From assembly GCF_900182585.1 (NCBI RefSeq), contig NZ_FXTM01000003.1, forward strand, positions 1 through 64,000: a DNA stretch of 64,000 nucleotides, given 5' to 3'. The notes under the pieces were generated by a model that saw only the letters and a program-made list of their open reading frames with translations, did no database searches and had not been told where the DNA came from. A program made the translations under genes and the position numbers. Source of the DNA: Balnearium lithotrophicum (GTDB taxonomy: Bacteria; Aquificota; Aquificia; Desulfurobacteriales; Desulfurobacteriaceae). This document shows, piece after piece, positions 40,645 through 45,010 of the stretch; position 1 is the stretch's first letter; the number at the start of each line of letters is the position of its first letter.

Positions 40645-41820
40645 ATGGAACCAGTTGTAATAGAGGGAAGGGTTCCGATATACGTCTATGCAAAAGACTT
40701 GGAACCAGGAGTTTTAAACCAGATAGAGAGAATAAGGGACTTACCCCTTTTTAGGGAAAGAATTGTAATTATGCCTGACTGCCATGCAGGAAAGGGATGT
40801 GTTATAGGTTTTACAGGTTACTTCGACGACGTAGTAATTCCAAACATAGTTGGAGTTGACATAGGCTGTGGTGTTTACACGTATCCACTCAACATAAAGG
40901 TTAACAGGGAAAATCCGAGAGAAGAAATAGACCTTAGAAAGTTTGATGCTTTTGTAAAGGGTAAAATTCCAATAGGACTTACATCCAGAACAAAGTCAAA
41001 TGCTAAGAAACTCCCCCTTTCTAAGGAGGATAGGGAGCTCCTCTCAGAGATTCGCTTCGTCCTTATAAATACCTACGGGATAGACCTTCAGGAGCCACTA
41101 CTCCAAGTTGGAACCTTAGGAAGTGGAAATCACTTTTTGGAGTTGGGAGTAGATGATGAAGGTCAGCTTTACCTAACTGTTCATACAGGCTCAAGAAACT
41201 TGGGTTTAAGGGTTTGTAACTTTTTCTACAACAAAGCAAAGGAGTACACGAAAAAAGTTATGCCAAACCTACCGAAGGAGCTTTCAATCCTTCCTATTAA
41301 TAAGGGAGGAAAGGAGTACATAAGGGCTATGAGGTTAGCCCAAAGATATGCCGACCTTAACAGGAGGGTAATTTTAAAAATCATTGTTGAGGAATTCTTC
41401 AAGGAAGAATTTCAGGAGGAGAGAATTATAAGGAGCGTTCACAACTATATAGATGTTGATAGGGACATGTGCGTTAGGAAAGGGGCTATCTCTGCCCACT
41501 TGGGGGAAAGGGTAGTTATCCCCTTTAATCTTACAACTGGATTAATTGTAGGAAAGGGAAAGGGAGTTAGGGAACTTAACTTTTCTGCTCCCCATGGGGC
41601 TGGAAGAAAGGTTAGCAGAAAAAAGGCAAAAGAACTCTTTTCTGTCAGTGAATTTAGAAAGGCTGTTGAGGAAGCGGGCGTTTACTCTTCTACAGTTTCA
41701 AGGGAAACCCTTGATGAGGCCCCCTTTGCATACAAGGACCCTAAAGAGATTTTGGAGTTTCTTCCAAAGACCGTTGAAATAGAAAAGTTTATAAAACCAA
41801 TATATAACCTGAAGGGATAA
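40645..41820 (+). CDS. rtcB: RtcB-family RNA ligase, short form
   Basis: 391 residues; GTP/Mn-dependent ligase joining 2',3'-cyclic phosphate or 3'-phosphate RNA to 5'-OH ends, for tRNA or stress RNA repair. MPDCHAGKGCVIGFTGYF, VGVDIGCGVYTY, VGTLGSGNHFLELG, HTGSRNLG and APHGAGRKVSRKKAKE (guanylylated histidine) are present. It is the short bacterial type rather than the ~480-residue archaeal form. No archease or RtcA gene is adjacent. Terminated by a hairpin that touches its stop codon, and divergent from acn. Confidence 0.92.
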   Translation: MEPVVIEGRVPIYVYAKDLEPGVLNQIERIRDLPLFRERIVIMPDCHAGKGCVIGFTGYFDDVVIPNIVGVDIGCGVYTYPLNIKVNRENPREEIDLRKFDAFVKGKIPIGLTSRTKSNAKKLPLSKEDRELLSEIRFVLINTYGIDLQEPLLQVGTLGSGNHFLELGVDDEGQLYLTVHTGSRNLGLRVCNFFYNKAKEYTKKVMPNLPKELSILPINKGGKEYIRAMRLAQRYADLNRRVILKIIVEEFFKEEFQEERIIRSVHNYIDVDRDMCVRKGAISAHLGERVVIPFNLTTGLIVGKGKGVRELNFSAPHGAGRKVSRKKAKELFSVSEFRKAVEEAGVYSSTVSRETLDEAPFAYKDPKEILEFLPKTVEIEKFIKPIYNLKG

Positions 41821-41845
41821 GCCGGCCATTTAGCCGGCAAATTTT
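41821..41845 (+). terminator. Terminator of rtcB
   Basis: GCCGGC-CATTTA-GCCGGC (41821-41838) followed by AAATTTTT starts directly after the stop codon. It also lies just past the convergent stop of the 357-residue gene and could serve it, though the minus-strand U-run is poor. Confidence 0.7.
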
Positions 41846-42918
41846 TAAGCAACAGGATATGCAAATGGTGGCCTTTCCTCAACTAACTTGATGTCCTTGG
41901 CCTCCTTCGGTAGGGGAACAACTTTAGTCCTTTCCACCCACCTCTCAGGAAGGTGGATTCTCCTTTTACCTATTCTTATTACGGCAGGTGCAACCTTTGC
42001 CTTGTACTTAATCCTTACCCCCCAAACCTTTCTTCCGAATTTGTTCTCAAACTCGCCAGGCCCCTCTAACTCTATATCCTTAGCAGAACCTGGGAAGTAG
42101 ATTCTCTTTGCGTAGTGTCTATCCCTACCCTCGTGATAGTAAACAAGCCACAAAACCTTTCCTTCCTTGTACTTAGCCTCTGTTGGTATGTACTTCTCGG
42201 CTTTCTCCTCCTCCTCTAAGAGCCTCTGGACGTACTGCTCAATCGTTTCATCTTCCCTTATCTCGTTCTCAGTCCAAACTTCAAACTCGACTTTCCACCC
42301 CTTAACAGTAGCAATTATGTTTGCAAGCTTAACGTTTCTCTCCTCTTCTCTCTCAACAAGCTCGTCTATCCTATCTAAAATATCCTCAAACCTCTCCCTG
42401 AAATCGGGAAGCTTTGTAACTGCAACTATTATGTCTCCCTGTTTCTTCAGCCTTTCGAGCGTCTCCTCGCTCTCTGCCAAAACCATTGCCTTTCTTATTT
42501 CACAGAAGTTTCTCCTTAACTCCTCAAGGATTTCTGGAGAAAGCTTTAAGTCAACAACGCTCTCAAGGATTTCCTTGAGAATCTTCTCAGGAATCTCCTT
42601 TAACCTCTCATCTATCGTTTTATTTTCGCTTCCCCAGGGGGAGTACTCCTTATCCCAGTTTTTGTACCTTGCTATGTAGTTTGCCAGTCTGACCGTTACC
42701 CTGTTCTCCTCAAGGGCAACCTCCCTCAACTCCTCAACCATTGAGCCAAACTTCTTCTTCCAGAAGGGTGAATAGGTTAGCGTGCAGAGGTAATCTGAGC
42801 GTTTCTTGAGGTCTGTAAGCTGCTCAGGTGTTTCAACCTCCAACATCTCATCTCTGATTATGCAGTTTATTCTCCTTATGTCATCCGGTCCTTCTACTCT
42901 TCCGTAGATGTGTGCCAT
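41845..42918 (-). CDS. Uncharacterised protein with an internal 81-residue duplication
   Basis: 357 residues, soluble, very charged. I recognise no family. Residues 15-95 and 135-215 align without a gap with 28 of 81 identities, each ending in a block like LANYIARYKNW or LANIIATVKGW, so the N-terminal two-thirds is a tandem duplication. The remainder (about 250-357) appears beta-rich: VLWLVYYHEGRDRHYAKRIY, AKDIELEGPGEFENKFGRKV, RIGKRRIHLPERW. It follows the 647-residue unknown across a 46-base gap with a hairpin. ATG 42918 lies behind GGGAGGGAG. A regulatory or structural role is more likely than an enzymatic one, but this is a guess. Confidence 0.8.
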   Translation of the reverse strand: MAHIYGRVEGPDDIRRINCIIRDEMLEVETPEQLTDLKKRSDYLCTLTYSPFWKKKFGSMVEELREVALEENRVTVRLANYIARYKNWDKEYSPWGSENKTIDERLKEIPEKILKEILESVVDLKLSPEILEELRRNFCEIRKAMVLAESEETLERLKKQGDIIVAVTKLPDFRERFEDILDRIDELVEREEERNVKLANIIATVKGWKVEFEVWTENEIREDETIEQYVQRLLEEEEKAEKYIPTEAKYKEGKVLWLVYYHEGRDRHYAKRIYFPGSAKDIELEGPGEFENKFGRKVWGVRIKYKAKVAPAVIRIGKRRIHLPERWVERTKVVPLPKEAKDIKLVEERPPFAYPVA

Positions 42919-42943: not shown

Positions 42944-42960
42944 GGGCGGCTAAACCGCCC
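42944..42960 (-). terminator. Intercistronic hairpin between the two uncharacterised genes
   Basis: GGGCGG-TTTAG-CCGCCC on the minus strand, four bases after the 647-residue gene's stop and 25 before the next start, followed by TTAAACTAAAT instead of a U-run. The layout is the same as between acn and idh. It is more likely a leaky or stabilising hairpin than a full terminator. Confidence 0.55.
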
Positions 42961-42964
42961 AGAA

Positions 42965-44908
42965 TTAGTTGAGTTTTTCAAGAGCTTCAAGTATCAAAAG
43001 ACCTGCCTCGTTTATGGAGCTCTTACCTATGAGGTTTGAAGCCCTAAGAATTACAAGCTCTCTTTCAAAAGACTCAGGGTCAAGCCCTGAAAGCTTCATA
43101 GCTTCCTTAAAGTTCTTTGGAAGGACCCTTACCTTCCTTTCCTTCTCATAGAGCGTTCCGACCTTCCTTAAGGCTTCAAGAACTCTCACTGCAAGAGGTG
43201 TTATAGGATTTCCGAAACCTTCAGGTGTTCCGGAGAGAGCTCTCTTGATTAGCTTTCCTGGCTCTGTGAGGATTATTGCCTCGTTCTGGAGGATATCTAT
43301 GTAACCGCGAGCTTCCAATTTGTTGAGTGCGTACTCAACCTCCTCCTTCCACGTCTCGTCAAACTGTTCGTAAACATCCTTAACAAAGAATCCCTTTTCA
43401 GGAATCTTGTGGAGAACCTGGAGTTCAAACCTTGTAATGTGCGGAAGCCTCCTTATTTCGTAGGCCATTTGAGCATACATCTTTCCTGCTTCCGTTGCCT
43501 CCCCTCCGCCTATAAGCTGAGCCTCAACACCCTTTTGATACCACTCAACGTTTGGAGCTGCAAACTCTTTGTTTGTAACAGTTATCGCTTTAACTCCAAC
43601 TGCCGGTATTTCCCTAATTCCCCTCGTCTTCATGTCCTCAAGGACCTTTTTACCGAACTCTGTTAGGTAGTGAACCTTCTTCCCCTCTTTTTCCTCTGCC
43701 CTTATCAGGTTGAACGATTCAAGGGTATAGAGGGACTCCTGAACCAAGTCGTACATCTTCTCGTACCACTGGTTACCCTTCTCGTAGAAGGACTTGAAGA
43801 GCTCCTCAACAGTCTTAACCTCACCAAACTTCTTCTGAATTTCTTCCTTCTTCTGATAACCTAAGTCCTGATAGAGTCTCCTTCCGTAGTACTCAAGGAG
43901 ATGCTTGTACTCCTTAAGTGGTTTGTAGAACAGGTAGTGGACAAGCTCATCTACAGTAGGAAGCGTTGATGGGTCGCTTTCGTTGTGCTTCCAAACCTCT
44001 TCGATTCCCCTTAGGAGCTCTGCATCAATCACCTCAACGTTTATCGACTTAACGGGTTTAAAGCTCCTCTCCTTCCAAATCCTGTAGGCCTCAAGTAGGT
44101 GTTCCCCAGCAGGTAATGGATTGCCCTCATCATCAATCAGCGCAAGCTGGAATAGAACCTCCTTCTCCTCGTCTGTAACGGCCTCAAATCCCTCGTAAAC
44201 GGCCCTCTCCAATGAGTCCATTATGTCTTCAGAGATAACAGTTTCCAACGTTGGAGCTATCGTTTCGCACGCAGCCTTTATCTCCCTTCCAAGTGGAGTT
44301 AATGAGTAGATGTCAGACGTTGGAACTGAAAATGCCAGTAACCTCATTGCTCCCATTAGAATAGGGAACCTTCCCCCTGCAGGAAGCATTGAGGACTCGG
44401 CAGGTCCTGCCGGCATCTCCTTTATGTACTGACAGAGTTCCCTGTCTATAATCAACCTTGGATGGGCATTCTTAAATATCTCGTAGATATCCTTTGCGTA
44501 CTGGTTAACTGTCCTGAATACTCCCTTCTTCTCTACCTTCCTCTCCTCAATGAAGCCCCTCTTTTCAAGCTCCTTCTCGGTTAGCTCTCCTGGAATATCA
44601 TCGTTCTCAATTGCTGTTTCAATCATCATCAAAACTTCTGAACCGAGCCACCTAAACTCCTCATCCCACTTTGACGGATGGAGAATAAACTTCTTCTCAA
44701 CCATGTCATCTAAGATGTTGGCTAAAGCCCTTCCCCAGTATGTAAGGGCATACTCTAAAGGCCTTACCTGTCTAAGAAGGTTCATTCTCTCAAGCTCTAA
44801 GTAGGGCGGCTCCTCAGACTTTAAGAAGAGCTGACACGTCGGAGCTTGATTCTTCTCCTCCTCCCTAACTCTCATAAGTGCTAAGGCGTGTTCTTTTCTG
44901 ATTACCAT
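42965..44908 (-). CDS. Uncharacterised protein with repeated winged-helix-like motifs
   Basis: 647 residues, no membrane segments. A motif of the form (L/I)-T-x-x-G-x-x-(L/I), typical of the last strand and helix of winged-helix domains, recurs: ALTYWGRAL (54-62), SLTPLGREI (202-210), YLTEFGKKV (414-422), ILTEPGKLI (547-555) and SINEAGLLI (631-639), with a sixth weaker one at ATEAGKMYAQM (470-480). So it may be an array of winged-helix folds, possibly binding DNA or RNA. It may correspond to the DUF505 family; I recall this only vaguely. It has a strong promoter of its own and precedes the 357-residue unknown. Confidence 0.82.
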   Translation of the reverse strand: MVIRKEHALALMRVREEEKNQAPTCQLFLKSEEPPYLELERMNLLRQVRPLEYALTYWGRALANILDDMVEKKFILHPSKWDEEFRWLGSEVLMMIETAIENDDIPGELTEKELEKRGFIEERKVEKKGVFRTVNQYAKDIYEIFKNAHPRLIIDRELCQYIKEMPAGPAESSMLPAGGRFPILMGAMRLLAFSVPTSDIYSLTPLGREIKAACETIAPTLETVISEDIMDSLERAVYEGFEAVTDEEKEVLFQLALIDDEGNPLPAGEHLLEAYRIWKERSFKPVKSINVEVIDAELLRGIEEVWKHNESDPSTLPTVDELVHYLFYKPLKEYKHLLEYYGRRLYQDLGYQKKEEIQKKFGEVKTVEELFKSFYEKGNQWYEKMYDLVQESLYTLESFNLIRAEEKEGKKVHYLTEFGKKVLEDMKTRGIREIPAVGVKAITVTNKEFAAPNVEWYQKGVEAQLIGGGEATEAGKMYAQMAYEIRRLPHITRFELQVLHKIPEKGFFVKDVYEQFDETWKEEVEYALNKLEARGYIDILQNEAIILTEPGKLIKRALSGTPEGFGNPITPLAVRVLEALRKVGTLYEKERKVRVLPKNFKEAMKLSGLDPESFERELVILRASNLIGKSSINEAGLLILEALEKLN

Positions 44909-44927: not shown

Positions 44928-44955
44928 TTTATATCTGTTATTTAAATTATGTCAA
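44928..44955 (-). promoter_or_regulatory. Promoter of the 647-residue unknown
   Basis: On the minus strand TTGACA (44955-44950) and TATAAA (44933-44928) are separated by 16 bases, the best consensus promoter seen in the window. The leader would be about 15 bases and includes GAGGAGGGAG. This suggests strong, constitutive expression of the two uncharacterised proteins. Confidence 0.7.
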
Positions 44956-45010
44956 ACATTTTTTTAGGGCAATAGAGTATCTACAGGATTACCTGCAAAT
45001 TTGTTAAATT

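Follow-up and report, generated by a model that had tools for sequence, protein, structure and literature searches.

What is the 647-residue protein encoded at 42965-44908 of the stretch of Balnearium lithotrophicum DNA analysed here (64,000 nucleotides, hereafter the window), and with what does it work? A sequence-only reading had proposed a tandem array of winged helices, driven by a strong promoter, serving as an abundant nucleic-acid-binding or scaffold protein rather than as a classical repressor. The open reading frame is present as claimed, and it lies on the minus strand, which that reading had left unsaid:

42965-44908, minus strand: DUF505 gene, 647 aa, predicted tandem winged-helix protein (PF04458 match and AlphaFold2 model m367ea7c42662).

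A Pfam profile search places the product in DUF505 (PF04458) with E=2e-235 over residues 1-642; its score of 783.4 bits against a cut-off of 28.7, covering profile positions 1-621 of 622, makes it a full-length member. DUF505 is thus a conserved family already in Pfam, without an assigned function, and what is new here is its reading as an array of winged helices and its links to other genes. NCBIfam, PADLOC and a sequence search of solved structures gave no meaningful match to the protein, and a literature search on DUF505/PF04458 and UPF0128/PF03673 (a recurrent neighbour, see below) yielded no relevant paper. Profiles of known regulators matched no complete DNA-binding domain: the total score for HxlR (21.6) exceeds the cut-off of 20.8, yet no single stretch passes, the best covering 21 of 91 positions, and the Crp and HTH_45 profiles stay below their Pfam cut-offs; we therefore do not assign the protein to the HxlR, Crp or MarR-type regulators. 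The genome holds one copy of the gene, whose neighbours include reductive TCA cycle genes (ATP-citrate lyase, isocitrate dehydrogenase and aconitase); beside aconitase, on the opposite strand, lies an RtcB-family RNA ligase gene (window 40645-41820).

The family is scattered, mostly among thermophiles. Isolates carrying it in our sample are Thermodesulfobacterium hydrogeniphilum and Thermopetrobacter sp., to which T. maritima and M. jannaschii are added as controls; the archaea sampled are control genomes only, and several phylum labels used below belong to vent MAGs, where misbinning may have made them wrong. Genomes G408-G418 of the Thermodesulfobacterium class carry a second, divergent DUF505 paralogue, with open frames of about 573-643 aa.

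The proposed winged helices were said to be marked by recurring LTxxG-like motifs. A strict LTxxG occurs four times in the protein, where 0.18 occurrences are expected by chance and none of 2000 residue shuffles reached four. All of the motifs claimed are there, four of them strict (at about 54-55, 202-203, 414-415 and 547) and two looser (471 and 632), and two further degenerate copies had been missed (about 134-135 and about 264). Together they form eight wing-to-helix junctions: LTYWG at 55, VNQYA at 134, LTPLG at 203, LPAGE at ~264, LTEFG at 415, ATEAG at 471, LTEPG at 547 and INEAG at 632. T416, G419, T548 and G551 never vary among 48 sequences labelled from many phyla, and T56, G59 and L206 hardly do. 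The AlphaFold2 model, for which these 48 sequences formed the input alignment, is confident (mean pLDDT 90.8, pTM 0.88, no stretch below 50), and its helices and strands recur along the chain as helix-helix-helix-wing-helix units, the order of a winged helix. In the model, all eight motifs sit where the wing of a winged-helix-like unit passes into its last helix; the earlier count of five or six, right as to the type of domain, should therefore be raised to about eight. The wings of units 4 and 6 are degenerate, almost without strands, and 'eight' is therefore assigned by the order of elements and not from superposed coordinates. The model supports well a serial array of about eight winged-helix-type units, arranged as four, a variable helical spacer and four (residues in parentheses; H, helix; E, strand):

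44681-44908, minus strand: winged-helix unit 1 (1-76), canonical wing, LTYWG; predicted H5-19, H34-41, E45-49, E52-55, H57-71.
44459-44680, minus strand: winged-helix unit 2 (77-150), canonical wing, degenerate VNQYA; predicted H90-101, H108-116, E120-125, E129-134, H136-147.
44249-44458, minus strand: winged-helix unit 3 (151-220), LTPLG; predicted H156-164, H181-187, E191-193, E200-203, H205-216.
44045-44248, minus strand: winged-helix-like unit 4 (221-288), degenerate wing, LPAGE, net charge -10; predicted H227-239, H246-254, H266-280.
43784-44044, minus strand: helical spacer (289-375) between the four-unit halves; lowest model confidence, pLDDT 65-72 at ~331-380.
43616-43783, minus strand: winged-helix unit 5 (376-431), canonical wing, LTEFG; predicted H381-398, E402-407, E410-415, H417-429.
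43448-43615, minus strand: winged-helix-like unit 6 (432-487), degenerate wing, ATEAG; predicted H436-446, H454-462, H473-484.
43223-43447, minus strand: winged-helix unit 7 (488-562), LTEPG; predicted H493-501, H509-514, H518-534, E537-539, E544-547, H549-557.
42968-43219, minus strand: winged-helix unit 8 (564-647), INEAG; predicted H571-583, E585-587, E592-594, H597-607, H611-623, H634-646.

The sequence-only reading had named one contrary outcome, a single large enzyme fold without winged helices. Neither the model nor a Foldseek search with it against the PDB shows any single catalytic fold spanning the chain. The leading Foldseek matches are mostly winged-helix proteins, several of them multi-unit (a TFIIH subunit, RPC62, SelB, aRDF, IdeR/MntR), all of them weak and none below E=0.001.

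Comparison of the units with one another bears out the tandem array in a second way. HHalign of the unit alignments gave 89% for unit 2 to unit 4, 84% for unit 2 to unit 5 and 32% for unit 6 to unit 8, and 12 of the 28 unit pairs outscore all 112 column-shuffled controls in profile-profile comparison, which indicates that many of the units are mutually homologous. Of the 35 possible partitions of the units into two groups of four, odd against even scores highest, odd units resembling odd ones best; this is modest support (1 in 35) for growth through duplication of a two-unit block. In the divergent paralogues of the Thermodesulfobacterium class, profile positions 1-296 and 362-620 are matched and the stretch between them is not, which fits a dispensable spacer linking two halves; the length of the spacer varies across the family.

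The gene had also been credited with the best promoter in the window. The element in question, TTGACA-16-TATAAA, is indeed the sole 11-of-12 sigma-70 match in the window, but its downstream half is not conserved in 17 relatives, and an alignment of 18 upstream regions shows a different layout, TTGACtTAAAA...TTTGA[C/T]ATAAT:

44946-44972, minus strand: conserved promoter, with its -35 at 44972-44967 (TTGCCC; TTGACT in relatives) and an extended -10, TGaCATAAT, at 44954-44946.

The -35 lies 15 bp upstream of the extended -10 (TGaYATAAT), and the pattern of conservation assigns the TTGACA (44955-44950) to the extended -10, not to a -35. As for abundance, the codon usage of the gene is the third closest, among 53 genes of the window, to that of the reductive TCA cycle enzymes, which lends that claim weak support; the main text of the published Desulfurobacterium and Thermovibrio proteomics papers makes no mention of the protein. 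A promoter element common to DUF505 and the UPF0128 operon was considered and rejected, as the two layouts differ.

Which genes accompany DUF505? The candidate partner put forward earlier was the 357-residue protein encoded next to it:

41845-42918, minus strand: 357-aa gene, no Pfam family above cut-off, internal repeat.
42944-42960, minus strand: GC-rich intergenic hairpin, DUF505 to 357-aa gene; in most relatives a hairpin of another sequence occupies this place.

The repeat pairs residues 12-104 with about 132-228 at 32% identity. In a sample of 61 Aquificota genomes the 357-aa gene comes after DUF505 in most members of one family (f1) and is otherwise confined to the sister family (f2) of the same order, where it and DUF505 lie on different contigs; some DUF505-positive f1 genomes do without it. 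With its restriction to one order and its lack of linkage in f2, it counts as a neighbour specific to this lineage, and the proposal of a general partner falls. The intergenic hairpin forms a clear stem in 13 of 16 such regions, its sequence differing between relatives, and perhaps acts as an mRNA stabiliser or attenuator.

In a set of 80 loci spanning many lineages, DUF505 is frequently alone or among unrelated genes, but some neighbours recur. UPF0128 (PF03673) adjoins it in MAGs with labels from about five phyla: it lies 17-142 bp upstream in those labelled Chloroflexota, Thermaceae and Caldisericaceae, is divergent in a Kapaibacterium MAG, and in Aquifex-type genomes sits ~1 kb upstream within one operon. 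The order of that operon is prefoldin-alpha, two uncharacterised genes, UPF0128, a gene for a Csm5-like protein, prefoldin-beta (PF01920) and DUF505. Nearly all UPF0128-bearing Aquificota have the ~240-aa Csm5-like gene after UPF0128; an archaeal-type prefoldin alpha (PF02996, 9.7e-23) comes next in B. lithotrophicum and other genomes read, and in f2 DUF505 has prefoldin-alpha as its immediate upstream neighbour. In B. lithotrophicum, DUF505, with its own conserved promoter, lies apart from the partner operon, which is on contig C2:

L134:8116-8832 (G000:C2): stand-alone Csm5-like gene, ~240 aa, conserved after UPF0128 (relatives L112-L132).
L134:8858-9322 (G000:C2:67923-68261): prefoldin alpha (PF02996), archaeal-type, in a bacterial genome.

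Side genes also cluster here: YfdX and DUF1931 genes near DUF505 at loci L071, L077 and L099 (labelled Campylobacterota), and in the prefoldin/UPF0128 operon at L139 (Hydrogenothermaceae).

Co-occurrence follows the same lines. DUF505 is carried by 32 of the 61 Aquificota genomes; UPF0128 and prefoldin PF02996 each occur in 22 of these 32 and in none of the 29 others, in nearly identical sets of genomes, and in family f4 the sole genome with DUF505 is the sole one with UPF0128 or prefoldin. Among 298 Anaerolineae genomes DUF505 is above cut-off in three, all with UPF0128, which is found in two of the 295 others. The corresponding Fisher values, 3e-9 and 2e-6, are nominal, as they ignore shared descent and the counts are not phylogenetically independent. 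UPF0128 is likewise present in 32 of 50 DUF505-positive genomes of mixed lineages. It is absent from 10 of the 32 DUF505-positive Aquificota, from 12 of the 13 genomes (of 41) with DUF505 above cut-off in the Thermodesulfobacterium class, and from the control Thermotoga maritima. UPF0128 and prefoldin thus usually imply DUF505, not the reverse, and DUF505 must be able to work where the module is missing. By gene order and co-occurrence, its recurrent, putative partners are UPF0128, the Csm5-like protein and archaeal-type prefoldin.

The Csm5-like protein has weak profile matches to Csm5 (best 4.5e-07). Its AlphaFold2 model, built on five sequences only, reaches pLDDT 77.5, and the first 22 PDB matches of this model are chains of CRISPR Csm complexes, Csm5 where named (probability up to 1.00, TMq up to 0.61); the protein probably binds RNA. 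A CRISPR array lies ~4.5 kb from the gene in the B. lithotrophicum genome, and its repeat (ATCCCACTACGTTCAGATAAAAC core) occurs at three dispersed places, one with a one-base variant:

L134:13319-14015 (G000:C2:72324-73011): CRISPR array.
G000:C1, ~41910-42195: CRISPR array.
G000:C7, ~41972-42576: CRISPR array.

The neighbours listed for the Csm5-like gene loci include no cas genes, and eight other module or DUF505 loci read contain no array. On this evidence, with the nearby array one of three dispersed ones, we reject membership of the gene in a type III CRISPR-Cas system.

The account that we prefer, tentatively and with somewhat less than even confidence, is that DUF505 is the tandem-winged-helix scaffold of a thermophile RNA/proteostasis module with the Csm5-like protein, UPF0128 and prefoldin. 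It builds on observations (family membership, predicted fold, repeat relationship, acidity and recurrent gene neighbourhood) and takes function, meaning everything beyond 'scaffold', from gene order and co-occurrence. DUF505 would be a rigid, heat-stable acidic protein scaffold, with most of its winged helices used in packing and protein-protein contact. In many lineages it may gather the Csm5-like protein, UPF0128 and archaeal-type prefoldin into an assembly acting in RNA/proteostasis (translation or stress) of thermophiles, and contact with RNA or the ribosome, if any, would most likely be made through a partner or the basic C-terminal unit.

Three other readings have to be weighed, and charge bears on two of them. 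The winged helices could sit on DNA, making DUF505 a regulator or an architectural chromatin protein: the nearest small-domain fold matches are the IdeR/MntR/DtxR repressors, there is weak profile similarity to HxlR, Crp and HTH_45, and some MAGs have genes near DUF505 for DUF1931, a family described elsewhere as histone-fold. Yet the protein has a pI of 5.3 (family median 5.33) and a net sequence charge of -21; its predicted H3 recognition helices are mainly acidic or hydrophobic, with few conserved Lys or Arg (R117, K530, R534, R622), so that the conserved basic recognition helix of a DNA-binding winged helix is lacking as far as the sequence tells; the model has no layout of a single DNA-binding domain with an effector domain, and no target operon recurs beside DUF505 in the 80 loci. 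The acidity and the scarcity of conserved Lys and Arg in these helices disfavour a repressor or chromatin role and favour a protein scaffold, and we consider DNA binding improbable. They also count against the earlier suggestion of an abundant nucleic-acid binder acting through its winged helices. The other part of that suggestion is supported: the protein is not a classical repressor and is probably a scaffold.

Alternatively, DUF505 could bind RNA or the ribosome directly through its winged helices, in the manner of the four-unit SelB arm or aRDF, with the array extended under stress over rRNA or one of the ribosomal subunits. This reading draws on the SelB C-terminal arm and aRDF among the weak fold matches, on the genetic link to the Csm5-like protein, and on unit 8, basic across the family (mean net charge +3.4), and unit 6, slightly so (+1.1). 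Set against it are the overall acidity, with units 1, 2, 4, 5 and 7 acidic on family average and unit 4 very acidic, and the aRDF match itself, with TM <=0.18 to a factor reported solely from the Pyrococcus group (PMC11724365); we think it unlikely, if still worth keeping in mind. A role as a stress-tolerance accessory of a mobile thermophile island (YfdX, DUF1931, a DUF308 membrane protein, peroxiredoxin), with no specific part in RNA, would suit the scattered, mostly thermophile distribution, which is compatible with lateral transfer, and the company of YfdX and DUF1931 in Campylobacterota-labelled MAGs, of YfdX in WOR-3, and of both in the Hydrogenothermaceae prefoldin operon. That company is seen in some lineages only, in MAGs whose labels may be wrong, and UPF0128 and prefoldin accompany DUF505 more generally; we give this role little credence.

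The scaffold reading gives a well conserved unknown of hydrothermal-vent bacteria, common to Methanocaldococcus too, a confident fold and a recurrent partner set, which make the orphan family a testable complex. It would be a larger claim, and one that we rate as rather doubtful, that DUF505 is the backbone of a possibly archaeal-derived, undescribed thermophile complex carrying a RAMP-type Csm5-like protein, UPF0128 and prefoldin on eight winged helices, a chaperone-coupled use of the Csm5-like RNA-binding fold outside CRISPR. If the Csm5-like protein does work outside CRISPR, it bears on the origin of the CRISPR RAMP proteins; if prefoldin belongs to the complex, an archaeal chaperone part has been taken up by bacteria.

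Among known systems, RPC62 of RNA polymerase III and the TFIIH subunit are tandem winged-helix scaffolds in large complexes. They are the top Foldseek matches and resemble DUF505 in their serial winged helices and mainly protein-protein scaffolding role, but DUF505 has about eight units, no sequence relation to them and a full-length TM of <=0.15. The C-terminal arm of SelB (1lva) is likewise a serial array, of four winged helices that bind mRNA hairpins; unlike SelB, DUF505 has no GTPase part, is acidic, has about twice the units and shows no sequence similarity. With aRDF, the Pyrococcus 30S dimerisation factor, it has in common a weak multi-domain fold match and a thermophile setting, but aRDF is half the length, forms a homodimer and is reported only from the Pyrococcus group (PMC11724365); given that restriction, TM <=0.18 and probability <=0.13, we reject homology. 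The linked ~240-aa protein, finally, is alike to CRISPR Csm5 in predicted fold and in its profile matches (to 4.5e-07), but it is shorter, has no cas genes seen near it, and stands instead beside UPF0128 and prefoldin.
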